The translations under genes and the position numbers were made by a program. This document shows positions 5,716-63,090 of a stretch of 64,000 nt of DNA, in pieces. Each line of letters begins with the position of its first letter. The first letter of the stretch is position 1. The stretch is from assembly GCF_024323335.1 (NCBI RefSeq), contig NC_066584.1:234872994-234936993 (forward strand), in the 5' to 3' direction. This DNA comes from Lathyrus oleraceus (lineage: Eukaryota; Streptophyta; Magnoliopsida; Fabales; Fabaceae). The notes under the pieces are model-generated. The model worked only from the letters and a program-made list of their open reading frames with translations. It was not told the origin of the DNA and searched no databases.

Positions 5716-5776
5716 CTACGTCGCCCTGATCCTCATACCAGATGAGGTACGTAGGCAGGAGACCGTGCGAGGTCTC
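5716..5776 (+). other. LTR two-hairpin module, copy a
   Basis: The outer stem CTACGT (5716-5721) pairs with ACGTAG (5749-5754). Inside it CCTCAT (5731-5736) pairs with ATGAGG (5742-5747) across loop ACCAG. It is followed by a second hairpin, GAGACC (5759-5764) with GGTCTC (5771-5776), loop GTGCGA. The 3' LTR copy is at 18924-18984 with loop GTACGA and an unchanged stem. Function unknown; see findings. Confidence 0.7.
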
Positions 5777-5868
5777 TCTGGGCACCTTTTTTCTTTTTGT
5801 GTGTGTTTGTTTGACAGTTCCTAGGCTCGAGTTCCCGACTCCCTAGTAGCTTGGTTGTTTGTTTCTTC

Positions 5869-5970
5869 TTGTGTGTCAGGATATGGATGTAAGACCAGCG
5901 ATTGGCTGTCCGTATCCTGAGTGTGTTTGTTTGGTTCGGAAGCCGATGTAAGTCCAGTGGTTGGCATTCA
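5869..5970 (+). repeat. Two spaced copies of a GATGTAAG(A/T)CCAG motif in the LTR
   Basis: Two related units, near 5886 and 5944, share GATGTAAG[A/T]CCAG and a TTGGC end. The first is flanked by AGGATA and TATCCT, which can pair. The same motif is amplified into five 58-bp units in the element 5 LTR (62632-62921). The unit contains GTAAGW, close to a 5' splice-donor consensus. Confidence 0.6.
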
Positions 5971-6023
5971 GGTTCCAAGTTTGCCCGTGTTTGTGTTTGT
6001 TTGTTTGGAGTGCGTGAGCCGAA

Positions 6024-6083
6024 CTACGGCAGCTCTGATTCTCGTTCCAGACGAGATACGTAGGCATAGGACGCGATGTCCTA
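6024..6083 (+). other. LTR two-hairpin module, copy b
   Basis: Outer stem CTACG (6024-6028)/CGTAG (6059-6063). Inner stem TCTCGT (6040-6045)/ACGAGA (6051-6056), loop TCCAG. Second hairpin TAGGAC (6067-6072)/GTCCTA (6078-6083), loop GCGAT. Compared with copy a, both stems have changed on both sides while pairing is kept. The 3' LTR copy is at 19232-19291. Confidence 0.7.
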
Positions 6084-6178
6084 GCGAGCCCTCTCCTCTG
6101 TTACCCCACCTGTGTTATCTTCAGTGTGTGTGTGTGATGTTTGTTTAGCAACCTTTTCTTTCTTTTAGAGCGTGGATC

Positions 6179-6194
6179 CCGTCGAGTACGACGG
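6179..6194 (+). other. AGTA-tetraloop hairpin near the LTR end
   Basis: CCGTCG (6179-6184), loop AGTA, CGACGG (6189-6194). It is followed closely by GGGGTGCTAATACCTTCC, a block conserved in all plus- and minus-oriented Ogre-like LTRs here except element 4. Related hairpins with different stems are at 39207, 33103 (minus) and 63190. Confidence 0.65.
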
Positions 6195-6385
6195 ACGTGA
6201 GGGGTGCTAATACCTTCCCCTTGCGTAACCGACTCCTGTACCCTTTCTCTTTGGTCGCGAGACCATGCTTTTTCTCAGGTTTACTCTGAGCGTTTCCTTT
6301 CCCTCTTTTGGGATAAATAACGCACGGTGGCGGCTCTGTGTTGTTTTGTTTTAGCCCGCCGGTTGTTTTTCGCGGATGCGACAGC

Positions 6386-6403
6386 TGGCGACTCTGCTGG
6401 GGA
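6386..6403 (+). promoter_or_regulatory. Primer binding site (tRNA-Arg type)
   Basis: TGGCGACTCTGCTGGGGA begins 2 bp after the LTR end. Its complement, TCCCCAGCAGAGTCGCCA, ends in CCA as a tRNA 3' end must. tRNA-Arg is the primer described for Ogre elements. The same 18-mer recurs at 39419 (Ogre-2) and 63392 (element 5). Confidence 0.92.
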
Positions 6404-9270: not shown

Positions 9271-9590
9271 CAGATCAGCACTGTCATTCATTCAGAAGAG
9301 TAATGATTTCTGTTTTGATTTTATCTGCATGAAAGCCATACGTGTTGCCCGACACGTACTGGTTCATTGTAAGGGCCACCTCATGTTTCATTTTGCAACA
9401 TTTTGCATCATAAATAAATGGATGTTTTTCAATTAAAAGCGGTGTTCCCTGTTTTTCATTTATTTTTGCAGTTTAAAAACAAATAAAAATGGCAATGTTT
9501 GTTTTCATTTTTCCCTTTCTTTTTTGATTTGTCTCGTTCCGACATCGAAAAAATAATTCTCTGGATCTCGTTGATAACAATTTGGTTACA
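9271..9590 (+). other. AT-rich spacer, intron-like, protease missing
   Basis: 320 bp without ORFs between gag and pol. It contains a pyrimidine-rich run ending TTTATTTTTGCAG (to about 9471), a plausible 3' splice acceptor. A spliced intron between the gag and pol parts is known for Ogre. No protease-coding sequence is seen. Confidence 0.5.
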
Positions 9591-10160: not shown

Positions 10161-10180
10161 AATCAAGGTCGATCCTGCTA

Positions 10181-10206
10181 AAAAAAATAAATAAATAAAA
10201 AATAAA

Positions 10207-10239
<33 letters not shown>

Positions 10240-10250
10240 TTAAAAAAAAA
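10181..10250. repeat. A-rich / (AAT)n simple repeat inside RT
   Basis: A run of AAATAAATAA and AAT units interrupts the RT connection region. Recognisable pol sequence resumes at MPEPRTEKEVRG. It is either an insertion or an expanded A-run. Confidence 0.85.
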
Positions 10251-11533: not shown

Positions 11534-11543
11534 AGAGACCCGC

Positions 11544-11731: not shown

Positions 11732-11756
11732 GGCAAAAGAGGGATTGAAACGAACA

Positions 11757-12598: not shown

Positions 12599-12599
12599 C

Positions 12600-13186: not shown

Positions 13187-13510
13187 AAGGTGAAGATGCT
13201 ACTCCAAGGAGTTTGGTATCGTGACAACAATATTCCCCAGTAGTGCGATACTGGAGGAAATTTTCTGTCGGACAGAGATGGGAATGTTGCGCGATCAGCG
13301 CGACTTGAGCCGTGGTTACCATTCGAGAATGGGTTTTGCCGGTCAGTAAAGATGATACTCCAAGGAGTTCAGCATTGTGACGTTAGGTCAATGGTATTCC
13401 CCAGTAGTGCGATACTGGAGGAAGATTTCTATCGTGCGAGATGGAAGTTGGAAGATGTTACTCTGAGGGGTTCAGCATCGTGATTTTGGAGCAACAGTAT
13501 TTCCCAGTCA
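13187..13510 (+). repeat. Degenerate ~165-bp tandem repeat with hairpins
   Basis: Three diverged units share ACTCCAAGGAGT (a 5-bp stem with AA loop) and, in two of them, CCAGTA-GTGCGA-TACTGG (13237-13254 and about 165 bp later). The third unit has lost most pairing. Confidence 0.65.
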
Positions 13511-13536
13511 TCAGTTAATGTCTGGTCGAGTTTTGT

Positions 13537-14037
13537 TCGATGTCCTGTAAACATCATTGTTCGATGTCCTGTAAACATCCTTGTTCGATGTCCTGTAAAC
13601 ATCATAGTTCGATGTCCAGTAAACATCCTTCTTCGATGTCCTGTAAACATCCTTCTTCGATGTCCTGTAAACATCCTTGTTCGATGTCCAATAAACATCC
13701 TTGTTCGATGTCCTGTAAACATCCTTGTCCGATGTCCTGTAAACATCCTTGTTCGATGTCCAGTAAACATCATTGTTCGATGTCCTGTAAACATCCTTGT
13801 TCGATGTCCTGTAAACATCCTTGTTCGATGTCCAGTAAACATCATTGTTCGATGTCCAGTAAACATCCTTGTTCGATGTCCTGTAAACATCCTTGTTCGA
13901 TGTCCTGTAAACATCCTTGTTCGATGTCCTGTAAACATCCTTGTTCGATGTCCTGTAAACATCCTTCTTCGATGTCCTGTAAACATCCTTCTTCGATGTC
14001 CTGTCAACATCATTGATTCGATGTCCAGTAAACGTCG
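13537..14037 (+). repeat. 24-bp tandem array, 21 copies
   Basis: The unit is TCGATGTCCTGTAAACATCC plus TTGT. Each copy has a dyad GATGT-7 nt-ACATC. Variants CCAGTAA and CCAATAA alternate in the loop, and the final copy (ACGTC) has lost a pair. Because 24 is a multiple of 3, both strands stay open and give false repeat proteins. It lies between pol and the 3' LTR, where Ogre-type elements are known to host hypervariable tandem repeats. Confidence 0.95.
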
Positions 14038-14149
14038 AGTTTCTTCCCGGTCATTGGTTAATGTCTGGTCGAAGGTGTACCCTCTGACATGTCGCCATCG
14101 GAGTGGTATTTTGGTGTTATTTCTGACGTTGCCAGCGGTATTATCACAA

Positions 14150-17700: not shown

Positions 17701-19591
17701 GTTTTGATATGGATTTGATGTTGATCATTCTGTTTGGTCTTTTGAAGTTGCAAATTGCATGTGTGATACCTTTTTGTGCATGAAATGATGATAATGAATG
17801 ATATGAGCATGGGACCAATTGCATTTGTTTCTAATTTGTTGGAATGTGATTTTGGATAATTTTCACTTGCTGTTTTGAATTTTTCATCTCCTTTGGACCC
17901 TAGGCTTGTCCTAGTGGTCTTGTTTCTCACTTTTGAGTTATGTTTCAGGTTGAGATGCAAATGCCTTAAGGAGAAAAATGCGAGTTGATTGAATTGAGTT
18001 TGGTTGCTTGTTGTAAGCTAACTTGTGTGTTTTGTAGGATGCTTGACTCAATTGAGTTGATTGTGCTTTGCACATTGCATTGGTTGACTGTATATATTAA
18101 CTGTTTGACTTTTGCTGTTTGTTTTGACTTTGTGACTTGAATACTGACTGTGCTTGATTGATTCCAGGTACCATAGTCGCTTTAGTTCTTTAAGAACTTG
18201 ATGTGCTGCTGCTTGGTTGTGTAAACCAGTTGAGGTAGACTCTCTTGTCTCCATGTAGTCTGGAAGACCTGGCCTGTTACTTGGCCAGGCAACTGTCTGA
18301 AGTCCTCCTTAAGAGGCGATGTTTGTGATTGTTTAATTTTGTCCCCAAGCAGGTAAAGACCTCTATGAGGCAATTGGCGGAACCCAAGGGATATGCAATC
18401 TATCCCCCGCTATTCTTGTTGAGTCGTCCCTCTGCTCACACCACTGTGTTGATGCATTGGGACATTAACCCAAGATCTTGTACATTTGTACAGTCGAGTC
18501 AGAGTCTTGAGTGTAGAAGGGTTCCTCCATTCTGGACCCACGCTCCTTTGTCTGAAGCTCTCCCTGGCCAGGGATAAGAGCTGTGAAGTCTAATTTTCAC
18601 TCACCTTTCATCTGCTTCACCCTGACTCTCAATGTCAGGGTTAAGAGCGAATACTACCCTGTACAGTTGACTTGCCTCGGCAGTCCACCCTTGTTTTAGC
18701 CTCACTTGACTAGATATAGTGTGTGCTATGTGAAATGTTTGCTTTATTTTGATTGATGCTTGCATGCTTGTTCTTCCTGGTTAGGATTAGCTTGCTGTTG
18801 TGCAAGTAGATAGAAACCATAACATAGGGCAATGATGCATGATAACACTAGGCTCGAGTACAGCTCCCTAGTAGTGTGTCTCCCCTTGGTTTCTGGCTAG
18901 AATTTCTTTCCCTTTCAGGGGAACTACGTCGCCCTGATCCTCATACCAGATGAGGTACGTAGGCAGGAGACCGTACGAGGTCTCTCCGGGCACCTTTTTT
19001 CTTTTTGTGTGTGTTTGTTTGACAGTTGCTAGGCTCGAGTTCCCGACTCCCTAGTAGCTTGGTTGTTTGTTTCTTCTTGTGTGTCAGGATATGGATGTAA
19101 GACCAGCGATTGGCTGTCCGTATCCTGAGTGTGTTTGTTTGGTTCGGAAGCCGATGTAAGTCCAGTGGTTGGCATTCAGGTTCCAAGTTTTCCCGTGTTT
19201 GTGTTTGTTTGTTTGGAGTGCGTGAGCCGAACTACGACAGCTCTGATTCTCGTTCCAGACGAGATACGTAGGCATAGGACGCGATGTCCTAGCGAACCCT
19301 CTCCTCTTTTACCCCACCTGTGTTATCTTCAGTGTGTGTGTGTGATGTTTGTTTAGCAACCTTTTCTTTCTTTTAGAGCGTGGATCCCGTCGAGTACGAC
19401 GGACGTGAGGGGTGCTAATACCTTCCCCTTGCGTAACCGACTCCCGTACCCTTTCTCTTTGGTCGCGAGACCATGCTTTTTCTCAGGTTTACTCTGAGTG
19501 TTTCCTTTCCCTCTTTTGGGATAAATAACGCACGGTGGCGGCTCTGTGTTGTTTTGTTTTAGCCCGCCGGTTGTTTTTCGCGGATGCGACA
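14701..19591 (+). repeat. Ogre-1 3' LTR
   Basis: 4891 bp, same ends as the 5' copy. It differs from it by scattered substitutions and a few small indels (10 bp near 15250, AAAA near 16060). The structural modules recur at 18924-18984 and 19232-19291. Confidence 0.93.
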
Positions 19592-22521: not shown

Positions 22522-25005
22522 TGTAACACCCTGAGTTCAATTAATTTTTTTAATTGAATTTTCCTTGTTTTTATTTAATTGCTTAAGTGATTTAAAATAT
22601 TTTTAATTATTTATTTTGGTGATAATATGTGTTATATGACTATTTGGCAATTGCGGGTATTTGGGGGAGATTTATAGAGAGTGGTAGAAATTAACTAGAA
22701 TTTTTAATCAATTTTAAAATAAGTAAAAATATAGAATAATAAACAAAATAAAATAAATAGTGATATTTGAGTGGAAATTAGAGTTTTTAGAAAAATAAGG
22801 AAAATTAGAGATGGAAAGGGTAAAAGTGGAATAACTAAAATAATGGAATTAAGTTTTAATTTAAAAAGAAAAGTGTGAGGGTTTGGGGAGTTTACTGATA
22901 CGTAGAAGTTGCATTGAGAAAAAGAGGCAAGAGGTAAAGTGAGAAAAAAGAAGAACAAGGATTTGGGAAAGAAGATCACCATGCCTAGAGCTTGAGTAAT
23001 TGATGGAAATTCATGTGTGTGTGTGTGTGTGTGTGTCTGTGTGTATGTGAGGGGGGAGGACTACTCTAATATAAGTGTGATTTGCATGAAGGGAAGATAG
23101 AGATCATCACCCTTCTCTAGGTTTTACTCACCATTATTGTACCTTATGAGTTTAATGATGATTGCCTGATCATCCATGTTAACTGCTATGTTTAATATGT
23201 GAATTTGTGCTCTGTTATATGCTGAATATTATGCCTAATATGTTGGTAATAATTCTGAACTTGGTTGTCACCATTGATGTGGTTTGATGTTATGAACATA
23301 ATCTTGAATTTGGGATTAATTGATAAAATTAAATGATAATCGATGAGTATGTGATGACTTGATCCCAATATAATACGTATCTATTATCTTATGTGAAAAT
23401 TTGGGCGATGTGGGTCAAAATCGGAGCTTCGAATGAGATTCCATGGTGAAAATGCGGAAACGACATTCTGCAATAACGTGACGGGTATCACTAGCGTGAC
23501 AACTGTCATGCATCTAGGTTGAGTGATGATCGTTAGCAGGGTGATGGGGAGACCGTCATAGTCTCAATGTAGGATTTCTCCTCCCGGTTGTCACATGGGT
23601 GACAGGTGATGAAGAAAAGGATGACAGGTTGGGTGATGGTCGTCATGAATTCAGGAACCAAATTTTTGAGTGATAGGTCTAGCTTTCATTGTTTTTTTCT
23701 TTTGTGGTCGATGTTCGACTGTTGTTTTAGAGTGTGGGATGAAATTAATTAATTATGGTGGATTATTATGATGAAGAAATAATAATTAAATTAATTTACA
23801 TGATTATAAATGGTGAATTATGATTATGTGTATGAATTGTTATGTTGTGAATACAATTACGTGATGTGAATATAATTGTACGTGTTATGTTAAGGTGTGT
23901 AATTCAGAAATGGGAACTATTGTGAATGTTATATTACATGTTCCTTGTGGTTAGAATTGGAGCCATGAGTGTTGTTGTTGTTTCATTACTTTGTATTTCA
24001 TGCATCATTTTGTGTCAGTGTGTTGAAAGAGGTGAGTCATGGGTTCAAAAGTGAGGACCTGTGATTGTCCGAGGTTTAGAAGTGGAGACCCGAGGTTTAG
24101 AAGTGGGGACCATGTTCAGATGAGGAACCATTGTTGAGTGGAGGAGATCGGTAACAAACCTATGATTTCCAAATTGGTATCATATGCATAGAGTCGAGTT
24201 ATGAGTCACATTGCATACATAGAGGCTATGTGAATTGAATTATTGTGTTATTGTGTAAACTGAATGTGTTTTTTTGATTGTGTAATTTTAACTACCCTTA
24301 CATTCTTTTACACCGTTAATATATTTGAGCATATTCTCACTCCTTTATTTTATATTTTGTGTTACTTTGTACATTAACTAAATTAACAAACTATTGAGAT
24401 ATAAGTGAAAAGTGATATCTAACTTTCAACTTAATTTGGTTATAAAACCTAATCTCTAATACTAACTAACTATTATGTCACTAACTTTTTTACCAAGTTA
24501 AAACATACTTAAGTGGAGTAAATCTAACCAAAGATGACGAAAAATTCAGAGTATTCATACTTTTGAAAAAAACATGGCACTTAAACAAGTTTGATGTTAT
24601 GAAGCGACCTCAATCTATTTAAAAGCAATTTATTTAAGTTGTAAATTCTTAGATATTATAAATATTTATAAAGTTATATTTGACTACAATTTAAATATAA
24701 TACATTTAAAATTCTATGTCGTAACTCAGGTTGCACATCCTCAAGACAGTTTTGAGCATATGGCAATGGTGTAATCAACCGCGCCATGAAACCAAAGATT
24801 TGAGAAATCTTTTAGTCAATATCATCATAAATGAGTGTGATTTTTTCAAGTTTATAAGTATTACTCATTAGTATTGAAATGATATATCCTTTTTGTTATA
24901 AAACAAGTCTGACGAGCAAGATAATATATGTATTCTATATTATCTTTCAAATTTCCTATTTGTAATTGAAGTGCCAGTAAGATTGAAGTGTTATAAACCA
25001 ATACA
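22522..25005. other. Unassigned AT-rich region, possible old LTR
   Basis: TGTAACACCC at 22522 is a common plant LTR start and lies directly against the copia gag N-terminus. A matching end was not found, so an LTR is only possible. It contains (GT)n at 23019-23046 and a short duplication of GAGGTTTAGAAGTGG near 24080-24105. I see no gene. Sequence to 25005 continues across the MULE insertion into 31405 onward. Confidence 0.35.
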
Positions 25006-32893: not shown

Positions 32894-34788
32894 TGTCGTA
32901 ACCTGAAAAATGGAATGCGAAAAAAAAACAACCGGCGAAGAAAGACAGGAGAGTCGCCACCGTGCGTTATTTATCCCAAAGGAGGGAAAGGAAACGCTCG
33001 AAGTAAACCTGGAAAAAGGAAAGGACAAGACAGGGTCTCGCAACCAAATCTTGGGTTCGGGAGTCGATTATGCGAAGGGAAGGTATTAGCACCCCTACGC
33101 ATCCGTAGTACTCTACGGGATCCACTTTTGTAGTTCTTGTCTAAAGGGTGTGGGTTTATCTAATGTGTTATTTACTAAAAAAAGGGGGTCAAAAGAAAAT
33201 GACTCGCACGGATGTCGCATCCACTGCATACGTATCTCATCTGAATATGAGAATCAGAGTCTTCGTAGCTCGGCTACCTAGGGGTTAAGGGTAATTGTGC
33301 TCGCTAAGACATCGCGTCTTATGCCTACGTATCTCATCTGGAATGAGAATCAGAGCAAGTCGTAGTTCGGCTAACTACGGGGTTATGGATTGGGTTTTGG
33401 ACGAACGACGTTACTACGCAATCTACCGGATGCTCGACCTTTGGAGACTTACTCACCTGTAGTAGAAGGAGTTAACGTGTTCTTAGGAGAAGAAAAATCA
33501 ATGAGTTGGTAGGGTTAGGGATGCTCATGCAAAAGGAGTCCTGGACGAAGGAACCTGTAAAAACAAAATAAACACACAAAAACATTGCCTCCTATCGAGG
33601 TCTTCCAGCTAGGAAAGCAGTAAAATGCGGGAAAAATGTAAAAGGTACCACGCGGATACAGATCCGAAGTAACAACAATTAGAGGAATGGGAAACCCAGG
33701 GATCCTTCCAAGCTAAACACCATCAAAGAAAGCGAGTCAGTACAGGTAATCGGAATAAACCTCCAGGTGGTATCCCACAAATAAAGTGGAACACCAGGCA
33801 AGCTATCCCTGCAAGAGTATGTGAGCCCTCACAAAAACTCAACAAAAGAGTTAGTGAAACACGATAAGCATTTTTTTCATGGATAACAGTATGGTTTCAG
33901 AAACCTCAAACCCTGTGGCATACACTTCAGAAATTAAACGATTAAGCATTCAAGGCATTATTTATACATTCATACATAATTATGAACCCGCAGGAAAAAA
34001 CCTAATGAAATTCATCCATCATACCTCAAACATTCAGAGTATTCAACTTCAAAGCACAAAGGTAATGGGAATAAGGGCAAACCTGATTGGAGAGATCGGT
34101 TGAAATCAAATGGCACGACTGGATTTGCAAACCAATGTTAGGGTTTGCTTGAGCTGAAAATGTGTGAGTCAGAATGAACCTTTCAGAGTTGCCTGGAGGT
34201 TCCTGCAGATTAATTCTCACTCTCTCTGTCTAGGTTTCTCTCCAGGTTTTGTCCATGGTTTTGTTCCAAGGAAACCTCATACTGTTTTGCTTCTCTTCCT
34301 TTTTCTGTCTGTTCTCCCTCTTTTATAACCTGATTTTCATGGCTTTGTGGGCTCAAATGAGAGAGGTCCAAGTCCAAGATTTTTTCTTTTTATTTATTTA
34401 TTTATTATTTATTATTATTATTATTTATTATTATTATTTTTTTTCCGTTTTCGGTTTTTTTTTTCGTTTTTCGTTTTTCGTTTTTTTTTTCGTTTTTCGT
34501 TTTTTTTTCAAAACACGTGGGCTTCGCCTAGCGAGCATGACAACTCATGAACAAACCTTTGCTCCTTCAAGATTAACGTTTTGATTGACGAATAGACCCC
34601 TGTTGGAAGTAACTCAAGTCTTTCCCTTGTGTTGACTGATCATCTAAATAGAACCCACAAAGTGTCCTGGATGATGTTCAAGCTTCTTGGAGCTAATCCC
34701 GATTGACATGATGAAATGCAATGTATCTAATGTTAAATGACCTAAAAATGAATGTGTGAATAAGGAGGGCAAATTTTGGGGTGTTACA
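32894..34788 (-). repeat. Element 3 (minus-strand Ogre-like): 3' LTR
   Basis: Read on the minus strand it starts TGTAACACCCC at 34788 and ends ...CGACA at 32894; 1895 bp. The sense-strand end contains GCGTAGGGGTGCTAATACC and ACGGTGGCGACTC, as in the other Ogre LTRs. Structural copies: AGTA hairpin at 33103-33118 (CCGTAG/CTACGG) and two two-hairpin modules at 33210-33267 and 33305-33365. It was inserted into copia gag after GAAAG (32889-32893). A T-rich simple-sequence stretch lies at 34380-34520. Confidence 0.83.
33210..33365 (-). other. Two LTR two-hairpin modules of element 3
   Basis: Plus-strand coordinates. Module 1: GGAT (33210-33213)/ATCC (33219-33222); TCTCAT (33235-33240)/ATGAGA (33247-33252) inside TACG (33229-33232)/CGTA (33264-33267). 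Module 2: TAAGAC (33305-33310)/GTCTTA (33316-33321); TCTCAT (33332-33337)/ATGAGA (33343-33348) inside CTACG (33325-33329)/CGTAG (33361-33365). The second-hairpin stems differ, and sense loops are GCGAC and GCGAT. Confidence 0.7.
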
Positions 34789-36597: not shown

Positions 36598-37279
36598 TGT
36601 CGCACCCCAAAATTTGACTTTGGTTTTGTTGACCACATCTTGATTAATCTTGTTGTCTCGTATTCATCTCAATTTCTTAAACTTCGCGTGACAACTGGTT
36701 TGATTAGGTTTTGTGTGTTTTCGTTGCTTACCGTGTTGTATTTCGTTGTTTTAGCAAAACCTGGCCGATATCGTTGCCTCGTATTTATCTCGCTTATCTC
36801 TGTTGTGCGTGGCATCGCTTCAATTAGGTTTTGTGCGTTTTTATCTATTTAATTGTTTATTTGTCGGTATTTTGACTGTATTTCGAATATATTAGAGTTT
36901 TCGTATTGTCTGATTATTTGTGACTGTGTTTGTCAGCGTTTTTCGTGATGTCGTGTTGATTTTATTATTGCCTAGGGTTGTTTATTTAATTACGTGTTGT
37001 GCCATGTGATTTAATCGAGTCTGTTTGAGTCGTGTTGTTGATTTTACTGGTTTACCAGTTTACTGGTTTATTGGTTTTATCAATTTGTCTGTTTTGCTGT
37101 ACAAATTGTCATCGTTTTTATCGCGTTCGTGTCGCTCGATTTTATCGTATTTTAATCGTGTGTCGTTTAATATTATTTGTGCTTAATATTAATTGTGTTT
37201 AGTTGTTAATTAGTTTATTTAATTAGGATTAATATTATATTAGTTTATTATTATTATTATTATATAATATATTAATTAT

Positions 37280-37640
37280 ATTATTAATTTATGTTAGATA
37301 TTTTTTAGGTTTCTTATTGTTTAAGTAATCTAAATATATATTATTAATTTATATTAGATATTTTTTAGGTTTCTTATTGTTTAAGTAATCTAAATATATA
37401 TTATTAATTTATGTTAGATATTTTTTAGATTTCTTATTGTTTAAGTAATCTAATATATATTATTAATTTATGTTAGATATTTTTTTAGGTTTCTTATTGT
37501 TAAGTAATCTAAATATATATTATAATTTATGTTAGATATTTTTAGGTTTCTTATTGTTTAAGTAATCTAAATATATATTATTAATTTATGTTAGATATTT
37601 TTTAGGTTTCTTATTGTTTAAGTAATCCAAATATATATAT
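37280..37640 (+). repeat. ~60-bp AT-rich tandem array in the Ogre-2 LTR
   Basis: Six units of about 60 bp sharing TTATGTTAGATATTTTTTAG and TTCTTATTGTTTAAGTAATC. The same array is at about 50375-50735 in the 3' LTR. Confidence 0.9.
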
Positions 37641-37942
37641 ATATATATAGATGTGGTTAGTAAGAAAAGAAAGAAAAAGAGGAGGTGGATCAGTAAGGAA
37701 AAAACGTGTGGTGAGAGAAACAGAGAATTGAAAAGAAATTATTCTCCAAAAGCATTACCGTATTTTCACTTGTTCTTCATTTTCGGTAACCCAAAATCGT
37801 CCCGATTATTCACCGAAACACAAAACTGATTTCATATCTTTGAAGTTCGTTGAGTCCAGGTCACAAATATCCAAGGTTCATTTCATTCCGGCGTCGTTTC
37901 ACCGATCAAAAGCGACGTTGAAGTCAGGTACTCACGAAGGCA

Positions 37943-39039: not shown

Positions 39040-39101
39040 CTACGTGGATTCTGATTTTTCCATTACGCCTTGGAGATACGTAGGCATGAAGTCTACGACT
39101 T
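39040..39101 (+). other. LTR two-hairpin module of Ogre-2
   Basis: Outer CTACGT (39040-39045) pairs with ACGTAG. Inner TTTCC (39057-39061) pairs with GGAGA (39072-39076) through one T.G wobble. The 3' LTR has TCTCC (52015-52019)/GGAGA with full pairing. Second hairpin AAGTC (39089-39093)/GACTT (39097-39101). Confidence 0.68.
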
Positions 39102-39206
39102 TATCGAGTCCAAAAACAATAAAATCAAGTTCTTTTCTCATCTCCCCAATCAAACGATCAAAGCGAAAAAAGCAAAGCATTCACATAAACATAAGCAAAA
39201 AGGTTC

Positions 39207-39222
39207 CTGTGGAGTACCACAG
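39207..39222 (+). other. AGTA-tetraloop hairpin of the Ogre-2 LTR
   Basis: CTGTGG-AGTA-CCACAG. Same place and loop as 6179-6194 of Ogre-1 but with a changed stem. Confidence 0.68.
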
Positions 39223-39418
39223 ATGTAGAGGGTGCTAATACCTTCCTTTTGCATAACCAACCCCCGAACCCGTAACTCTAAAGGGATTTATCGTTATTTT
39301 TCCCTTCCTCTTTTTGGATAAAATAAAAGACGGTGGCGACTCTTGCATTTAAAATATTTTTCAAACGGGTTAAGTTAAATCAATACTTAATCTCGTGAAA
39401 AATCCCGCCGCGACAGAA

Positions 39419-39436
39419 TGGCGACTCTGCTGGGGA
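39419..39436 (+). promoter_or_regulatory. Ogre-2 primer binding site (tRNA-Arg type)
   Basis: TGGCGACTCTGCTGGGGA, 3 bp after the LTR end; identical to the Ogre-1 PBS. Confidence 0.92.
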
Positions 39437-40043
39437 GTATACATGATTAAACTTATTTGAGGGTTTAGCCTATCTTTGCTTGTTTATATGTTTGCTTTGT
39501 GAATATTTGCTAAATTGTATTGTTTGTAATGTTTGTTATTTTGGGTTTTGGGGGGTACTTGTGATAAATCCTATACCCGGATTTGGGGCACATTTGAGAT
39601 AGGATGGATGATAATTCAGGTTGACTTGATAGGAGACAATCCTTACCGAGTTGACTTGAGCCTTTGTCCGCTTGGTGGAGGCCTCTTTGAGGGTGATAGT
39701 GCTAAACAAGTCATTTGTGAGGCATTGTTGCTTTCGACGGGCCCGTGAAGCCAAGGACCTTAGTTTACCTTTACCCCATCTTGGCCTTACTTAGGATGTG
39801 ATGCGGTGACCACTTCGGACCAAAAGTCTGGTTTGGTTGATACGCGATATCACACTCAAGCGAGATTCTTTTGAGAATAATATTGGAAAGCGAGCAGTTG
39901 CTTAACACGGTATTATCCGAAGAAGGATCCATAACCTTGGGAACTTTTAGAACCCGTTTGGCAGGTGAACCTTAGAACTTATCTTGGGGCTTTGTCCTAA
40001 ACTCCATGCTGGTGATGAACTTTGAGCCTTGTATTGTTTGACC
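39437..40043 (+). other. Ogre-2 leader
   Basis: 600 bp, non-coding. It does not share the TCCTAG hairpin of the Ogre-1 and element 5 leaders. Confidence 0.6.
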
Positions 40044-41647
40044 ATGTGTGTGTTTGTTGCATTCATGCATGACATGCATTCATTCCCATCATTTCAACCT
40101 TTTTCCAAGGAACTTAAAGTGAGGATTGCAAATATTGCAGGAAACATGGATTTTGGACGAAGAAGTGTGAAAAAGTACAATCTCATCAATCCAAAGATAG
40201 ATGAACTAAAGAAACTGGTTTCTTCGATCGCAGATCCTATTGGTTTCAGAGACAGATATGGGGCACTTATATCTTTATTGACGCTTAGGATGGAAGAAGG
40301 GTTATTGCAGACATTAGTACAGTTCTATGATCCAGTCTATCACTGTTTCACATTCCCAGACTATCAACTCATGCCTACATTAGAAGAGTATGCCCAGTTG
40401 CTTCACATCCCAGTTGCTGATACAGTACCTTTCTCTGGTTCAGAAAAGTTACCCGAGCACAGTTCTCTTGCAAAAGTGTTGTACATGAAGAAGTCAGAAT
40501 TCAAGAATAACTTCACCACCAAAGGAGGACTTCCAGGTTTCACTGCCAAGTTCTTAATGGGAAGGTTTCTTATTTTTCCAGTCAAGGTTGTGATATTATT
40601 GTGGAGCATCTGTTCGCCTTGTTGATCTACGGTTTGTTACTATTTCCTAATATTGAAGGTTTTGTGGATTCATATGCTAGACGCATCTTCCTAAGTGGTA
40701 ATCCTGTTCCAACTTTGCTCGGAGACACCTATCATTCCATCCATTACCGTACTTTGAAAGGAGGAGGAACCATAGTCTGCTGTATACCGTTACTCTACAA
40801 ATGGTTTGTCTCTCATCTTCCTAAGTCAGCTACTTTTTGGGATCGCAAGTCAGGACTTCAATGGTCACAGAGGATTATGTCTCTTACCCAGTCAGATATT
40901 GCATGGTATAGTAGAGTTTTAGACGATGTGAAGATCATTGATAGTTGCGGGGAGTTCCCCAATGTGCCCCTCATGGGCACAAAGGGAATCATTTCTTATA
41001 ATCCAGTACTTGCTAGGAGACAACTCGGTTACCCTATGAAGGACAAGCCTCCTAACATTCTTTTAGAAGGTATTTTCTTGAGGGATAACGAGGAGGACCC
41101 TACCATGAAAGAGAGAGTAGTAAGAGCTTGGCATCGTGTTTGTCGCAAAGGGGGACTTGAATTGGGTAAGAAAGATTGTACCTCCTATGAGCCGTACCTC
41201 CAGTGGATCAGAGCCAGAGCTATACAGTTGAAAATGCCATACCCACATCATGATCCTATCAAACCCGCTCCGTTGAAGACCCCCTACCTTCCGCTAGATG
41301 ACAAAGAAGAACTCCAAGCCACCTTGGAGAGGGTCAAGAAAGAGAGAGACGCTTGGAAGGATAAGGCCCAGGTGCTCGAAATGGAAAATGAAGAACTTCA
41401 GAGACAGTTAAAGGAGCAGAGTGGAGAAGATCGTGCAGGTAAACGTCCAAGGGTGCAAGAGGATTTATTTTCCTCAGGCACAACAGATTACTCCCAGATT
41501 CCACAGTCCTCAGGTGCATGGAAAGGTCTTGTAGACAGTTTGGTGAAGGAGAAAGCTTTTATGCAGAAGGCCTATGAAGAAAGAATTGAGAGACTTGAAG
41601 GACAACTCCCACTTGTTTATGCTCGTCCTGATGACACATGTCCTTAA
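40044..41647 (+). pseudogene. Ogre ORF1, PMD-like protein with one frameshift
   Basis: Ogre elements carry an ORF of unknown function before gag. The first ATG in the open frame is 40044; this frame reads to 40625. The second frame (from about 40577 to 41647) continues without loss, so a single shift lies near 40575-40600. The N-terminal part has FTFPDYQLMPTLEEYAQLL; after the shift FALLIYGLLLFP and later WFVSHLP. Both blocks line up with the PMD protein in the MULE of this window (FYLSTGECTVTLEDVYMLL and YIMLLFGNLLFP, then WGWWRLP), in the same order. The C-terminal third is a predicted coiled coil (LERVKKERDAWKDKAQVLEM... and LVKEKAFMQKAYEERIERL) with a basic KRPR patch between. Plausibly a nucleic-acid or chromatin-associated accessory protein; function is unproven. 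Confidence 0.78.
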
Positions 41648-42528: not shown

Positions 42529-42803
42529 ACCGCAGTTGACATCCCACATTGTGTCCACATATCAAAGTAATTAAGCTTTTCAGTTTTCAAAAATCTTCCG
42601 CTTTAGCCCAAAGCGCGAAGCATTAATTTTGTAAAATGGGAACTTTTGTCAAAAACGTACTATCCATGAAAAAGATCTTTTGTGTTCCTATACACTTGTG
42701 TCCTTTTATCTTTTCAGCTTTTTCGGAAAATGGTAACACAAAAAAAAAACCTTAAAAAGAACACGTTTTTGCATGTCATGGTCAGTCCTCTAAAAACAAT
42801 TGT
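42529..42803 (+). other. Spacer at the gag/protease deletion, intron-like
   Basis: Non-coding and AT-rich. TCCTTTTATCTTTTCAG (ending near 42718) and TTGTTTGTACAG (ending about 42811) both look like 3' splice acceptors. The pol frame has no ATG before residue 24, which suits expression by splicing. Confidence 0.5.
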
Positions 42804-45800
42804 TTGTACAGGTTACTTAAACCCGTTGAACACAATGACATCATGCCATCTCCCAACTTTGAACATTCTGTATTCGAAGCTGAAGAGGAAGAGTGGGATG
42901 AGATTCCAGAAGAGGTTACCCGCCAGTTTGAAAATGAAGAAGACACTATTCAGCCATACAAGGAGCCTTTGGAAACAGTCAACTTGGGTTCGGAAGAAAA
43001 TGTGAAAGAAGTCAAAATTGGAGCATTGTTATCCCCACAGGTCAAGGAGCAATTGATCAGCCTGTTGAAAGAGTATGTAGATGTGTTTGCTTGGTCTTAT
43101 CAAGATATGCCTGGTCTCGACACTGACATCGTAGAGCACAAGCTACCTTTGAAGCCAGAATGTCCACCGGTCAAACAGAAATTAAGAAGAACACATCCAG
43201 ATATGGCCGTCAAAATTAAAGAAGAAGTTCTGAAGCAAATAGATGCTGGTTTTCTTGCCACTTCAGTGTATCCAGAGTGGATAGAAAATATTGTGCCAGT
43301 TCCTAAGAAGGACGGGAAGGTACGAATGTGTGTGGACTATCGTGACTTAAATAGAGCAAGCCCAAAGGATGATTTCCCCCTGCCTCACATTGACATGTTG
43401 GTAGACAATACAACAAAGTTTGACATATTCTCTTTCATGGACGGATTCTCCGGGTATAACCAGATCAAAATGGCACCCGAAGACATGGAAAAAACTACAT
43501 TCATAACACCATGGGGAACATTCTGTTATCAAGTGATGCCGTTTGGGTTGAAGAACGCAGGTGCTACTTACCAGCGAGCCATGACAACGCTCTTTCACGA
43601 CATGATGCACAAAGAGATTGAGGTTTATGTGGATGACATGATCGCGAAGTCTCGTTCAGAAGAAGGTCACTTAGTAGATCTATTGAAGCTGTTTCAACGA
43701 TTGAGGAAGTTCTGTCTTCGCCTCAATCCGAACAAATGCACATTTGGCGTCAGGTCAGGTAAACTCTTGGGCTTCATTGTCGGCCAAAAAGGCATTGAAG
43801 TTGATCCAGATAAAGTAAAAGCTATCCAAGAGATGCCCGCACCAAAAACAGAAAGGCAAGTGAGAGGTTTTCTAGGACAATTGAATTACATATCCCGGTT
43901 TATTTCTCACATGACTGCCACTTGTGAACCTATCTTCAAATTGCTGAGAAAGAGTCAGAATTGTGTTTGGACAGAGGATTGTCAGAAAGCATTTGACAGT
44001 ATCAAAGAGTACCTCATGGAGCCTCCTATCTTGTTACCACCTGTTGCTGGAAGACCGTTGGTTATGTATTTGACAGTGCTTGAGAATTCTATGGGCTGTA
44101 TTCTGGGTCAACAAGACGAAACTGGAAAGAAAGAGCATGCCATTTACTACTTAAGCAAGAAATTTACTGACTGTGAATCACGATACTCCTTACTCGAGAA
44201 GACATGTTGTGCATTGGCTTGGGCTGCTAAGAGATTGAGGCAGTATATGTTAAGTCACACCACTTGGTTGATATCCAAAATGGATCCAATCAAGTACATT
44301 TTTGAGAAGCCTGCACTCACTGGTAAGATTGCAAGATGGCAGATGCTGTTATCAGAATACGACATTGAGTATCATACCCAGAAAGTTATCAAGAGCAGTG
44401 TGTTGGCTGAGTACCTTGCTCACCAACCCGTTGAAGATCACGATGATAATGAGGATGAGTTTCCTGATGAAGATGTCATGTTCCTAAAATCCAGAGATTG
44501 TAAAGAGCCACTTCCTGAAGAAGGACCTGAACCAGATTCTCAATGGGGTTTAGTATTTGATGGAGCTTCCAACGTTTATGGACATGGAGTAGGTGCAGTC
44601 ATTATCACTCCAGAAGGTTCTCATATTCCTTTCACGGCAAGAATTTGCTTTGAATGTACAAACAACATTGCTGAATATGAAGCCTGTATCATGGGTCTTG
44701 AAGAAGCCATTGACCTCCGCATCAAAAATCTTACTGTTTATGGTGACTCAGCGTTAGTTATCAATCAGATCAAAGGAGAATGGGAAACACGCCACCCTAG
44801 CTTGATCCCATACAAAGACTATGCAAGAGGATTGTTGACTTTCTTCACCAAGGTTGAATTGCATCACATTCCTCGGGATGAGAATCATATGGCGGATGCT
44901 CTAGCTACGTTGTCTTCAATGTATCAAGTGGGTTTTCCAAACGAGGTACCCAGAATTGTGATCAAGCGACTTGATAGACCAGCACATGTGTTTACAGCTG
45001 AGGCCAGTTTTGATGATAAACCATGGTACCACGATATCAAGCATTTCCTTCAGACTCAGGAGTATCCTCTTGGAGCAACAGAAAAAGATAAAAAGACTTT
45101 GAGAAGATTGTCAGGCAGTTTCTTCCTTAATCAGAATGTGCTCTATAAGAGGAATTATGACATGGTCTTACTCAGATGTGTTGACAAAAAGGAAGCAGAA
45201 ATGTTGATGAAAGAAGTTCACGAAGGGTCCTTTGGTACTCATGCAAACGGCCACTCTATGTCAAGAAAGATGTTGAGAGCTGGTTACTACTAGTTGACCA
45301 TGGAATCAGATTGCTACAAATTTGTAAAGAAGTGTCACAAATGTCAGATCTACGCTGATAAGGTTCATGTACCACCAACCTTTTTGAATGTGATTTCTGC
45401 TCCTTGGCCATTCTCAATGTGGGGCATTGACATGATCGGTATGATTGAACCCAAAGCTTCCAACGGACACCGTTTCATTCTCGTGGCAATTGATTACTTC
45501 ACCAAATGGGTGGAAGCAGCTTCGTATGCAAAGGTGACAAAGCAAGTGGTGGTCAGATTCATCAAAAATAATCTCATTTGCCGATATGGCATTCCAAACA
45601 AGATCATCACTGACAATGGCTCCAATCTGAACAACAAAATGATGGATGAATTATGTGAAAGTTTCAGGATCGAGCATCACAACTCTTCTCCTTACCGTCC
45701 CAAGATGAATGGGGCAGTTGAAGCTGCAAATAAGAATATCAAGAAGATCATTCAAAAGATGGTTGTTACCTACAAAGATTGGCATGAAATGCTGCCTTTT

Positions 45801-49692: not shown

Positions 49693-51328
49693 TGTCGCAC
49701 CCCAAAATTTGACTTTGGTTTTGTTGACCACATCTTGATTAATCTCGTTGTCTCGTATTCATCTCAATTTCTTAAACTTCGCGTGACAACTAGTTTGATT
49801 AGGTTTTGTGTGTTTTCGTTGCTTACCGTGTTGTATTTCGTTGTTTTAGCAAAACCTGGCCGATATCGTTGCCTCGTATTTATCTCGCTTATCTCTGTTG
49901 TACGTGGCATCGCTTCGATTAGGTTTTGTGCGTTTTTATCTATTTAATTGTTTGTTTGTCGGTATTTTGACTGTATTTCGAATATATTAGAGTTTTCGTA
50001 TTGTCTGATTATTTGCGATTGTGTTTGCCAGCGTTTTTCGTGATGTCGTGTTGATTTTATTATTGCCTAGGGTTGTTTATTTAATTACGTGTTGTGCCAT
50101 GTGATTTAATCGAGTCTGTTTGAGTCGTGTTGTTGATTTTACTGGTTTACCGGTTTACTGGTTTATTGGTTTTATCAATTTGTCTGTTTTGCTGTGCAAA
50201 TTGTCATCGTTTTTATCGCGTTCGTGTCGCTCGATTTTATTGTATTTTAATCGTGTGCCGTTTAATATTATTTATGCTTAATATTAATTGTGTTTAGTTG
50301 TTAATTAGTTTATTTAATTAGGATTAATATTATATTAGTTTATTATTATTATTATTATATAATATATAAATTATATTATTAATTTATGTTAGATATTTTT
50401 TAGGTTTCTTATTGTTTAAGTAATCTAAATATATATTATTAATTTATGTTAGATATTTTTTAGGTTTCTTATTGTTTAAGTAATCTAAATATATATTATT
50501 AATTTATGTTAGATATTTTTTAGATTTCTTATTGTTTAAGTAATCTAAATATATATTATTAATTTATGTTAGATATTTTTTTAGGTTTCTTATTGTTTAA
50601 GTAATCTAAATATATATTATTAATTTATGTTAGATATTTTTTAGGTTTCTTATTGTTTAAGTAATCTAAATATATATTAATAATTTATGTTAGATATTTT
50701 TTAGGTTTCTTATTGTTTAAGTAATCCAAATATATATATATATAGATGTGGTTAGTAAGAAAAGAAAGAAAAAGAGGAGGTGGATCAGTAAGGAAAAAAC
50801 GTGTGGTGAGAGAAACAGAGAATTGAAAAGAAATATTTTTCCAAAAGCATTACCGTATTTTCACTTGTTCTTCATTTTCGGTAACCCAAAATCGTCCCGA
50901 TTATTCACCGAAACACAAAACCGATTTCATATCTTTGAAGTTCGTTGAGTCCAGGTCACAAATATCCAAGGTTCATTTCATTCCGGCGTCGTTTCACCGA
51001 TCAAAAGCGACGTTGAAGTCAGGTACTCACGAAGGCAGCCAGCACTGCGTCGGTGACGGTTTCCAGCTTTCGGTCGATCATTTGGACGATCAGAAGTTCA
51101 TCTTCTTCACACAAGGTAATATTCTTCACTTATCTCTGAAATCGGAGCCAGCACTGCGTCGGTGACGGTTTCCAGCTTTCGGTCGATCATTTGGACGATC
51201 AGAAGTTCATCCTCTTCACACAAGGTAATATTCTTCACTTATCTCTGAAATCGGCAAAGTTTCGGCTTGCCGACATGTGTTTTAATATATTATATTATCT
51301 ATCTATATATATATATATATATAATATA

Positions 51329-51368: not shown

Positions 51369-52373
51369 TTTTGTTTACTAAATATTGTTTATCTTTTATT
51401 ATTATTTTGCATATATGTTTTATTTAAATGTTAGTTAAATTAATTATTTGTTTAAATGTTTATTTTAATTAAATGTTTATTTATATCAAATGTTTATTTT
51501 GTCTAAAGTAAATGTTTATATTGTTTCTTATATTTGTTTATGTTGTTACTAACCGTTTCGTTTCAGTTTCAGCTCGATTAACTCCACTAACTATTCGTAA
51601 TACTAACTATTCATAGCTAACTGTGTTGTAATAATTTACTTTCTCGCATTTTTTATTTTCTGTATTGTGTGTTTAATCATATTGTTCACGTTTTATGTTA
51701 AAAAATCGAAAAATCCAAAAAAGAGAAACCCGATGCGATTCCAACGGTCGTCGTTTAAGAAACCCTTTTCACACACTCACAAGCTTACTCTTGGGCTTCC
51801 TTATAATGAGCCCATTTATGTATTGTTTCAGGGTTTAGGCTCATTCAAATCTTTTGCCAGCTTTGACTTTTCAGTTTAAAAACATTTTCAAAAGGACGTG
51901 TCAGTCTCGAAGCCTCCCGCCTAGGTCGAGCAAGAGATGGCAAGACACGCCAATCTAAAATCAACAAAACAGACTTTCCCCTTTTCTTTTGGGAGAACTA
52001 CGTGGATTCTGATTTCTCCATTACGCCTTGGAGATACGTAGGCATGAAGTCTACGACTTTATCGAGTCCAAAAACAATAAAATCAAGTTCTTTTCTCATC
52101 TCCCCAATCAAACGATCAAAGCGAAAAAAGCAAAGCATTCACATAAACAGAAGCAAAAAGGTTCCTGTGGAGTACCACAGATGTAGAGGGTGTTAATACC
52201 TTCCTTTCGCATAACCAACCCCCGAACCCGTAACTCTAAAGGGATTTATCGTTATTTTTCCCTTCCTCTTTTTGGATAAAATAAAAGACGGTGGCGACTC
52301 TTGCATTTAAAATATTTTTCAAACGGGTTAAGTTCAATCAATACTTAATCTCGTGAAAAATCCCGCCGCGACA
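49693..52373 (+). repeat. Ogre-2 3' LTR
   Basis: 2681 bp. Same ends and internal repeats as the 5' copy; shorter mainly in the TA tract. Scattered substitutions, about 1% by eye. Confidence 0.92.
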
Positions 52374-52378
52374 CCCCG
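52374..52378. repeat. Target-site duplication of Ogre-2, right copy (CCCCG)
   Basis: Identical to 36593-36597. Confidence 0.88.
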
Positions 52379-52954: not shown

Positions 52955-53188
52955 TGTCGCACCTCAAAAAAAGAGATAATGCGATCCCTCGTGATGGAAC
53001 ACGGAAAAAATGTTGTTCGAACAGAGTCGCCACCGAACTTTACTCAACGGGAACCTTTTAGTTTGATTTTGCTATTTGACTGTTAATTGACTGTTATTTG
53101 CTTGCTTCGAGTGATTAGAATTGATGATAGATGTGGATGAAGACCTCAGGAGGGGGAAATGGGAGGTTTTTTATTAGTGTGCTCACGA

Positions 53189-53251
53189 AGATACAACAAT
53201 CTCCTGCCTATGTATCCTTATGGTGCAATAAGGAAATCAGAGCATTCATAG
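53189..53251 (-). other. LTR two-hairpin module of element 4 with changed outer stem
   Basis: CTATG (53208-53212) pairs with CATAG (53247-53251), where other elements have CTACG/CGTAG. Inner TCCTTAT (53215-53221)/ATAAGGA (53228-53234). Second hairpin AGAT (53189-53192)/ATCT (53199-53202). Confidence 0.7.
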
Positions 53252-57088: not shown

Positions 57089-57106
57089 GCTGCCCCTATT
57101 TAATTA
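57089..57106 (-). promoter_or_regulatory. Element 4 polypurine tract
   Basis: Sense TTAAATAGGGGCAGC adjoining the LTR start, the Ogre core motif again. Confidence 0.83.
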
Positions 57107-62000: not shown

Positions 62001-62530
62001 TGTCTGAAGCCCTCCTTAAGAGGCAATACTTGTGTTTGTTTATCTTTGTGCCAAGCAGGTAAAGACCTCTTAAGAGGCAATTGGAAGATAAAAGGGATGT
62101 GCAATCCATCCCCTGCTATTCAGTTGTGTCATTCACCCTGCTCACACCATTGTGTTGATGCATTGTGGATAATAGCCCAAGATCTTTGTTGTGTCAGTCA
62201 TCTGTGGAGAAGAGTTCCTACATTCTGAACTCCCACACTTTCATTTGTCTGAAGCTCTCCCAGGCCAGGGATAGGAGTTGTGACGTCTTACCCTCACTTC
62301 CCATTTCATGAGCCTCATTGTTTGCATATAGTGTGTGTGCTTGCTTTTTGTGCTTGTATGTGTTTGCCTGTGCTGTTTAGGATAGCTTGCTTCCTGTGCA
62401 AGTTAGATAGAAACCTTAACATAGGGATCGTATGAATGATAACTTCTAGGCTCGAGTCGTAGTCTCCCTAGTAGTTTGTGTCTCCCTTTGTATCTGGTTA
62501 GGTTAGAAGTTCTTTCCCTGTTAAGGGGAA

Positions 62531-62589
62531 CTACGTCGCCCTGATCCTCATACCAGATGAGGTACGTAGGTAGGAGATGAGCTGATCTC
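62531..62589 (+). other. LTR two-hairpin module, element 5 copy a
   Basis: CTACGT (62531-62536)/ACGTAG (62564-62569); CCTCAT (62546-62551)/ATGAGG (62557-62562); GAGAT (62574-62578)/ATCTC (62585-62589). Confidence 0.7.
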
Positions 62590-62631
62590 TCCAGGCGCCC
62601 TTTTTCTTTTTCAACCCCTTTGTGTGTGTTT

Positions 62632-62921
62632 GGAGTCTGACGTAAGTCCAGCGATTGGCAGTTGGTTTCCTGTGTCTTGTTTGCTTGTTGGAGTCTGACG
62701 TAAGTCCAGCGATTGGCAGTTGGTTTCCTGTGTCTTGTTTGCTTGTTGGAGTCTGACGTAAGTCCAACGATTGGCAGTTGGTTTCCTGTGTGTGTTTGTT
62801 GGTTCGGAGTCTGATGTAAGTCCAGCGATTGGGATTCGGTTTCCATGTTTGCCTGTTTGTGTTGGAGTCTGACGTAAGTCCAGCGATTGGCAGTCGGTTT
62901 CCTGTTTGTGTTGTGTTTTGT
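62632..62921 (+). repeat. 58-bp tandem array, 5 copies, with GACGTAAGTCC
   Basis: Units start GGAGTCTGACGTAAGTCCAG at 62632, 62690, 62748, 62806 and 62864. Each contains GTAAGT and CCA-GCGAT-TGG. Copies 4 and 5 are more diverged. Open frames on the minus strand here follow from the repetition. Confidence 0.92.
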
Positions 62922-62940
62922 TTGGCGTGCGTTAGCCGAG

Positions 62941-63004
62941 CTACGAGTGCTCTGATTCTTCCTCCAGTCAAAGAAGATACGTATGCATAGGATCCGACAT
63001 CCTA
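62941..63004 (+). other. LTR two-hairpin module, element 5 copy b
   Basis: Outer TACG/CGTA; inner TTCTT (62956-62960)/AAGAA (62971-62975); second hairpin TAGGAT (62988-62993)/ATCCTA (62999-63004), loop CCGAC. Confidence 0.66.
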
Positions 63005-63030
63005 GCGAGCACGTTTTCCCTTGTCCCGAA

Positions 63031-63090
63031 CTACGTCGACTCTGATGTCTGTGCCTGACAGACTACGTAGGCCCAGGATGCGATATCCTG
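63031..63090 (+). other. LTR two-hairpin module, element 5 copy c
   Basis: CTACGT (63031-63036)/ACGTAG (63065-63070); GTCTGT (63047-63052)/ACAGAC (63058-63063); CAGGAT (63074-63079)/ATCCTG (63085-63090), loop GCGAT. Confidence 0.7.

Follow-up and report, generated by a model that had tools for sequence, protein, structure and literature searches.

A recurrent RNA module, predicted to form a four-helix pseudoknot, near the LTR ends of Ogre-type elements in Lathyrus oleraceus

Ty3/gypsy elements of the window and the module copies in their LTRs

We have analysed a stretch of 64,000 nucleotides of the Lathyrus oleraceus genome (C6:234872994-234936993, called the window throughout), which holds several large Ty3/gypsy elements, and a module of about 70 bases that recurs near the ends of their long terminal repeats (LTRs), one to three times in each Ogre-type LTR of the window, and that is predicted to fold as a pseudoknot. 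Elements of Ogre type constitute a large part of some legume genomes; the name is applied to the present elements as an assumption, following an earlier note on this DNA. Both LTRs are present in two elements, those of element 1 being 98.9% alike and those of element 3, in two pieces, 97.0 and 97.7% alike. After three of the LTRs lies the primer-binding site (PBS)-like sequence TGGCGACTCTGCTGGGG, a putative match to tRNA-Arg; a PBS of this type and an extra open reading frame ahead of gag are further traits of the Ogre/Tat lineage. A gag piece (PF03732) was matched in element 1. Element 3, in which no gag was matched, encodes a putative extra open reading frame (ORF) with DUF7745, reverse transcriptase, RNase H, a second RNase H and integrase. 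The DUF7745 matches (E 9e-38 and 6e-90) lie in overlapping ORFs at 40026-41644, ahead of the reverse transcriptase, and RVT_3 (PF13456, E 7e-22), which we take to be the archaeal-type RNase H (aRH), follows reverse transcriptase and RNase H in ORF 42756-45290 of this element, the sole one tested. The Tat clade is defined by a second, archaeal-type RNase H (PMC6317226), and element 3, having this marker in its sequence, fits the clade as that article defines it.

Read in the sense of the element, the module has the order P1a CTACG, 1-3 nt, P2a (GCTC-like), TGAT, the P3 hairpin, TA, P1b CGTAG, GCA, the P4 hairpin, 2 nt and P2b (GAGC-like). The window contains nine distinct copies in five LTRs, and 12 when the second LTRs of elements 1 and 3 are included. 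The earlier note had likewise placed nine copies in five LTRs, each with an outer stem, an inner hairpin and a second hairpin; the copies are where it put them and the three stems are real, although the plan was incomplete, since it missed P2, the crossing helix that makes the module a pseudoknot.

In the 5΄ LTR of element 1, copy E1a occupies 5716..5784 (+ strand; P1 CTACG/CGTAG, P2 GCCC/GGGC, P3 CCTCAT/ATGAGG, P4 GGAGACC/GGTCTCT) and E1b 6024..6090 (+; P1 CTACG/CGTAG, P2 GCTC/GAGC, P3 TCTCGT/ACGAGA, P4 TAGGACG/TGTCCTA), and near-identical copies of the two lie in the 3΄ LTR at 18924..18992 and 19232..19298 (both +). On the minus strand are E2a, at 33298..33365 (P2 TGCTC/GAGCA, P3 TCTCAT/ATGAGA, P4 TAAGACG/TGTCTTA), and E2b, at 33201..33268 (P2 GACTC/GAGTC, P3 TCTCAT/ATGAGA, P4 GTGGATG/CATCCGT; outermost P1 pair C.T). 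The 5΄ LTR of element 3 has E3 (39040..39110, +; P2 GATTC/GAGTC, P3 TTTCCA/TGGAGA, P4 TGAAGTC/GACTTTA), with a near-identical copy in the 3΄ LTR (51998..52068, +; P3 TCTCCA/TGGAGA); the inner stem TCTCC that had been given for this element is that of the 3΄ LTR copy only, the 5΄ LTR copy having TTTCC/GGAGA with a U.G pair. In E5 (53180..53251, -; P2 TGCTC/GAGCA, P3 TCCTTAT/ATAAGGA, P4 GGAGAT/ATCTTC) P1 is the compensated CTATG/CATAG, as had been described under the name of element 4. Our element 4 carries the partly decayed E4a (62531..62597, +; P2 GCCC/AGGC, one pair lost), E4b (62941..63011, +; P2 TGCTC/GAGCA, P4 TAGGAT/ATCCTA; outermost P1 pair C.T), whose inner stem in the homologous register is TCTTC/GAAGA and not TTCTT/AAGAA as first proposed, and E4c (63031..63097, +; P2 GACTC/GAGTT, P3 GTCTGT/ACAGAC, P4 CAGGATG/TATCCTG). 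The P2 types of the window are GCTC/GAGC, GACTC/GAGTC, GATTC/GAGTC, GACTC/GAGTT and GCCC/GGGC.

The string CGTAGGC occurs eight times in the window against 1.39 expected, and none of 100 shuffles had as many. A covariance model built from the nine copies found the 12 window copies at E < 1e-21 (nine of them match by construction), the next match having E = 5e-4 and the following ones being at chance level. That next match, at 23193-23255(-), and a weak one in the sampled stretch L032 (E 0.06) were rejected, as both are without LTR context. We also observed a sub-type, GAGCTACG..CGTATGC, common to 33268-33201(-) and 62941-63011, in which the base before P1 and the last P1 base change together; the joint change is also present in five of the six GAG-flanked copies of the larger sample described below, and the GAA-flanked copy L012:4477 also has T.

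Covariation of the four helices

The nine copies were segmented by hand, with P3 hand-adjusted in two of them for the pair-by-pair, stack and hand-alignment counts, and RNAalifold and the shuffle tests were applied to the plain, unadjusted MAFFT alignment. On that alignment RNAalifold returned, unprompted and instead of the outer stem P1, a helix between the 4-5 bases that precede TGAT and the GAGC-like segment that follows the second hairpin. As this helix, P2, crosses P1, the predicted fold of the module is an H-type pseudoknot, each long loop of which contains a hairpin. Over all four helices 95.1% of the cells of the MAFFT alignment are paired, against a shuffled mean of 77.9%, and none of 500 shuffles reached 95.1%; changes on both sides occur at 16 of the 23 pairs, 41 cells being changed on both sides versus 13.1 in shuffles, and slid control alignments pair at 30-50% only. 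These nine copies have no unusual number of further pair types (87 of 500 shuffles were as high). The hand alignment has 207 filled cells (187 Watson-Crick, 12 G.T, 3 A.C and 5 other) and 9 gap cells. In a tree-aware null for the nine copies, in which the same substitutions were redrawn on the tree (two variants, with 200 alignments for each), the best stack scored at most 2 for 4 bp and -1 for 5 bp, values exceeded by P4 (13 and 14), P3 (12 and 14) and P2 (5 and 3). The six top-ranked column pairs of 3486 all belong to the structure.

A model with P1, P3 and P4 and without P2 (R1) was then applied to 200 kb of the same genome in 20 stretches of ten kb, 18 of them at round-number positions on seven large contigs and two near the window. 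It matched 33 copies, all with E < 1e-6, in 12 of the 20 stretches. P2, which had no role in gathering these copies, is paired in 96.7% of their cells, and all five of its pairs have changed on both sides (9, 9, 7, 8 and 6 cells, the outermost pair being gapped in 14 rows); since the alignment was fitted to P1, P3 and P4, the counts for those three helices lean towards structure. The sample adds the P2 types AACTC/GAGTT, GTTC/GAAC and GTTT/AAAC, and the P1 types CTACT/AGTAG and CTACA/TGTAG. Among 1830 stacks of 5 bp, tested with the tree taken into account, the best distinct ones are P3 (35), P4 (32), P2 (29) and P1 (-14), versus a null maximum of -19 in 100 nulls, and among 1953 stacks of 4 bp P1 scores -2 versus a null maximum of -3 (100 nulls); all four helices beat the null. 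Four of the five P2 pairs have E 1.5-2.7, or 0.014-0.027 when only the 23 pre-named pairs are counted. No column pair outside the four helices had E < 0.05 in the 33 copies, a test in which a helix of one or two near-invariant pairs, such as a P1.1 of HDV-like ribozymes between L3 and the strand after P1, could not show. Another ten stretches, each of four kb, yielded four copies, of which one is cut; a fifth match there (E 0.06) was dropped.

In the 33 copies G.T cells number 50 and A.C cells 11 (p = 5e-7), and this excess of G.U over A.C indicates that the RNA in element sense is the folding strand. LTR elements are copied by reverse transcriptase, and template switching can correct the arms of a hairpin in one step, so that the stems might be inverted repeats perfected during copying, or else palindromes bound by a factor as DNA, with no selection on RNA structure. 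Such an origin predicts no G.U excess; P2, with two hairpins and an arm of the crossing helix lying between its own arms, should hardly be open to such correction, and the linkers are conserved as sequence (TGAT exact in 31 of 33 copies, TA in 33 of 33, and GCA in 26, GCC in 6 and GTA in 1). We regard it as highly improbable.

Another reading is that P1 and P2 are alternative conformations of a switch and do not coexist. Pseudoknot-free minimum-energy folds hold P2 in 14 of the 33 copies and P1 in 6, and covariation is beyond proving that the two helices form simultaneously. However, P1 and P2 have no base in common, and the 1-4 linker bases beside the 4-5 bp P2 are of a length that spans such a helix in known H-type pseudoknots. 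The gap between P1a and TGAT is 6-8 bases in 43 of 47 matched copies. A switch seems to us distinctly unlikely, and the pseudoknot is retained as the predicted fold.

How abundant is the module? The 18 spread stretches hold 24 copies, which corresponds to about 506,000 per 3.795-Gb assembly (Poisson 324,000-753,000, ignoring clustering), and this extrapolated density suggests that the genome has roughly half a million copies. Genome-wide counts of large families are lower bounds. Matching P2 arms were found in at least 10,937 (GACTC..GAGTC) and at least 26,090 (TGCTC..GAGCA) cases, the crossed combinations in 37 and 19, and the reversed-pattern controls in none; as the copies are clonal and the arms differ by two letters, these counts show linkage more than independent events. 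The fifth P1 pair is changed on both sides in at least 25,616 copies, compared with 16 in the reversed-pattern control; in the 100 matches listed, which come from a few subfamilies and all lie at the start of contig C1, it is T-A or A-T.

Position relative to the LTR end and the primer-binding site

In the LTR ends of elements 1-4 the motif GGGTGCTAATACCTTCC hardly varies (6202-6218, 19410-19426, 33094-33078(-), 39230-39246, 52188-52204 and 63214-63230) and recurs in the sampled loci. With up to 3 mismatches allowed it marked 20 LTR ends, of which the 1000 bases upstream were examined. One to four modules precede it at 17 of the 20, the last starting 176-227 bases upstream of it. The distance from the start of this last module to that of the PBS is 364-424 bases where a PBS was matched; in the window it is 365 nt for element 1 (PBS at 6386..6402, +) and 364 nt for element 4 (63392..63408, +), both counted from the last module match, and 382 nt for element 3 (39419..39435, +), counted from its module match. 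Seen from the module, 44 of 49 copies have the GGGTGCTAATACCTTCC motif or a copy of GGTGGCGACTCT within 1300 bases downstream, and two of the other five are cut by the end of the stretch. The usual order past the last module is H5, the GGGTGCTAATACCTTCC motif, a ATAAATAAC-like signal, GGTGGCGACTCT, the LTR end and the PBS.

H5 is a covarying 6-bp hairpin; its loop, AGTA (AATA once), lies 155-210 bases downstream of where the last module starts. It is CCGTCG-AGTA-CGACGG in element 1 (6179..6194, +; 3΄ LTR copy at 19387-19402), CCGTAG-AGTA-CTACGG in E2 (33103..33118, -), CTGTGG-AGTA-CCACAG in E3 (39207..39222, +; 3΄ LTR copy at 52165-52180) and, with one pair lost, CCGTCG-AGTA-TGACAG in E4 (63190..63205, +), and it is largely lost in E5. 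When the best candidate of each copy is taken, all six pairs form in 28 of the 39 copies with a candidate, in eight different stems; the rest are partly lost or too far upstream for the 260-base search.

The sequence GGTGGCGACTCT is found in the LTR end of all five elements (6326-6337, 19534-19545, 32961-32950(-), 39332-39343, 52290-52301, 53034-53023(-) and 63338-63349). In the three elements with a matched PBS it starts 54-87 bases ahead of that site. Its TGGCGACTCT (in elements 1 and 4, TGGCGGCTCT) is a repeat of the ten bases with which the PBS begins. If both RNA ends had such a second site complementary to the tRNA, this would recall the bipartite PBS of Ty3 (PMC11381356). In elements 1 and 4, ahead of their last modules (about 5877-5990 and 62628-62910), tandem units with GATGTAAGTCCAGCGATTGGC were seen by eye within longer inverted ends (GGATATGG..CCGTATCC and GGAGTCTG..TTGGTTTCC); the GATGTAAGTCCAGCGATTGGC units are hairpin candidates, and their CGA loop resembles the loop of many P4 hairpins.

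From the narrow spacing to the PBS and the TATA-like matches upstream, it is likely that the module copy of the 5΄ LTR is transcribed within the R/U5 leader. A scan for a TATA-like transcription start was not decisive, TTATAAAAGAGGGAGA of element 2 lying about 1.4 kb before the LTR end with no site shared between elements; nor is TTATAAAAGAGGGAGA among the TATA matches of the sampled locus L021, whose LTR end resembles that of element 2. TATA-like consensus matches lie 0.8-5.4 kb upstream of the LTR-end motif at 14 of the 20 ends. The long leader that they would predict, the tandem arrangement of the copies and the pyrimidine-rich flanks of several of them would suit an element acting in translation or at RNA ends (internal or cap-independent initiation, or a block to exonucleases), possibly also at the 3΄ end of the RNA. 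Yet these matches are to a consensus only, several of them are AT microsatellites and the other six ends have none, and such a role is in our opinion unlikely.

An LTR position would also put the module on the transcripts of the element, where its pseudoknot could serve as a nuclear export or stability element, letting unspliced, intron-containing Ogre RNA leave the nucleus. Ogre RNA has been reported to contain an intron, the MusD transport element is pseudoknotted (PMC12786077) and export of unspliced RNA is obligatory for LTR elements (PMC10309623). The retroviral and MusD/IAP transport elements are comparable: they act in cis on unspliced retroelement RNA, are structured and in part contain pseudoknots (PMC12786077). 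The narrow spacing between module and PBS would, however, be needless for export, and we hold this function to be unlikely too, to the same degree as one in translation.

Candidate roles and relation to known structured RNAs

The strand order P1-P2-P3-P1΄-P4-P2΄ is that of the self-cleaving ribozymes related to hepatitis delta virus (HDV), in which P1 usually begins with G and the catalytic C lies in J4/2. By covariation the module has this same order; within its two-base P4-P2b joint C precedes P2b in 32 of the 33 sampled and 7 of the 9 window copies, and the joining bases before P4 are near-invariant. On the other hand, P1 begins with C and has 5 bp in place of 6-7, P3 has 5-7 bp, TGAT separates P2 from P3 and TA separates P3 from P1΄, GA at the would-be cut site just upstream of P1 is kept in 33 of 33 sampled copies, and the HDV models of Rfam match neither of two LTR ends up to E = 5. 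The HDV-like fold is a double pseudoknot in which P2 stacks on P3 (PMC4908430). HDV-like ribozymes, such as those of R2 elements, share with the module the helix order and may share the conserved C before P2΄ (PMC4908430, PMC3774820) and differ from it in its TGAT and TA linkers, its long P3 and its conserved bases upstream of P1. The module is not assigned to the HDV-like ribozymes despite the equal helix order; a catalytic role of this kind is unlikely as judged from sequence, and self-cleavage we consider very unlikely.

What, then, could the module do? It is compact, is predicted to fold in the sense strand, keeps a narrow distance to the PBS, is repeated and, in the sampled DNA, goes with a single kind of LTR end, and for these reasons it looks like a cis-acting replication signal. 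Since Ty1 offers the nearest tested case, we favour, at a probability of about 40%, a four-helix pseudoknot in the sense RNA that would act as a recognition site for the element's own Gag and reverse-transcription machinery in the leader. According to this model, the sense genomic RNA would fold each module into a compact pseudoknot, to which Gag, with reverse transcriptase, would bind in the leader; through binding, the full-length RNA would be selected, packaged and prepared for copying from a tRNA primer, as proposed for the Ty1 5΄ pseudoknot, and several copies per LTR would provide higher avidity and redundancy. In Ty1, the stems of the 5΄ pseudoknot are primary Gag sites in vitro, and point mutations in them leave packaging unaffected (PMC8396678); the pseudoknot is required for efficient reverse transcription according to the title of Huang 2013 as cited in PMC11381356. 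Both are pseudoknots near the 5΄ end and the primer site of an LTR-retrotransposon RNA, but that of Ty1 is a single long-range knot, whereas the module, lying inside the LTR in 1-4 copies, is a local and compact knot into which two hairpins are inserted. Ty3, of the same Ty3/gypsy superfamily, has a structured 5΄ end with roles in priming, dimerisation and packaging, and predicted pseudoknots; these lie in GAG and POL, and no LTR module of this plan appears in the available part of the article (PMC11381356). Dimerisation by a domain swap, in which the P1 arms of different copies would pair, was considered for the module and is weakened because copies within one LTR can differ in their P1 arms (CTACG and CTACT co-occur in L005, L006 and L007).

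Several results weigh against recognition of such a pseudoknot by Gag and reverse transcriptase. All data come from one genome, and the structure was studied by sequence comparison only. The conserved RNA structure claimed in the earlier note holds in the larger alignment at helix level against tree-aware nulls, but pair by pair only three pairs pass, 3 of 2346 having E < 0.05 in the 33 copies (two in P3 and one in P4; no P2 pair alone); in the nine window copies the corresponding figure is 1 of 3486, a P3 pair. P1 alone is not significant with nine copies (stack scores of 1 for 4 bp and -3 for 5 bp), and its outermost pair is C.T in two of the nine. Genome-wide, beside 7,336 A-U cases of P1 there are 2,358 A.C and 1,716 G.U single mutants; those listed occur in many families and without G.U preference, which fits decay of dead copies. 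The pseudoknot-free folding energy barely beats that of shuffles (mean z -1.0, with 4 of 33 below -2), in a model that omits the pseudoknot. Finally, one to three copies in every LTR, as had been proposed, holds in the window, but elsewhere there are up to four, and three of the 20 motif ends have none (window 29752, a weak match; L020 8878; and L023 4676(-)).

A more far-reaching reading, which we find doubtful, is that the module represents a novel RNA class, which combines the HDV helix order with a different core, has spread in tandem in Ogre/Tat LTRs to some half a million copies in a single plant genome and would serve as a tag, or even a catalyst, that sets the RNA of the element apart from that of the cell. 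Retrozymes, plant LTR elements with hammerhead ribozymes (PMC4918200), are another case of structured RNA carried by plant retroelements, but their hammerheads are three-way junctions in non-autonomous elements, whereas the module is a pseudoknot in elements that encode Gag and Pol pieces. As the earlier note had supposed, no previous description was found, either in Rfam or in the literature searched, which did not include Neumann 2003, Macas and Neumann 2007 and Steinbauerova 2008. Rfam 15 gave no match in the window, and in two LTR ends three weak ones (E 1.1-4.5), far below the gathering score. Scans of prokaryote contigs for relatives gave none save one Streptococcus match in apparent coding DNA, taken as chance, as were three phage-like matches in viral contigs without the other features of the module; a search of prokaryote and virus collections with a piece of the reverse transcriptase gave no relative.

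The Ogre-type elements would carry a structured cis-acting RNA signal that has no name in Rfam or in the literature searched. It gives structure probing and Gag-binding work a defined target, and likewise studies of how the RNA of plant LTR elements is selected by the elements themselves. Provided that the extrapolated copy number is correct, the module would count as a highly abundant structured RNA motif, and wherever an LTR is transcribed it may give rise to unannotated structured RNA. The covariance model is in addition a way to find and orient decayed Ogre LTRs.

Two other repeats were observed in the elements of the window. An array of 24-base units, open in several frames, lies at 13437-14132, ahead of the 3΄ LTR of element 1, and 60-base tandem repeats occupy 37181-37698 and 50276-50797, that is, both LTRs of element 3.

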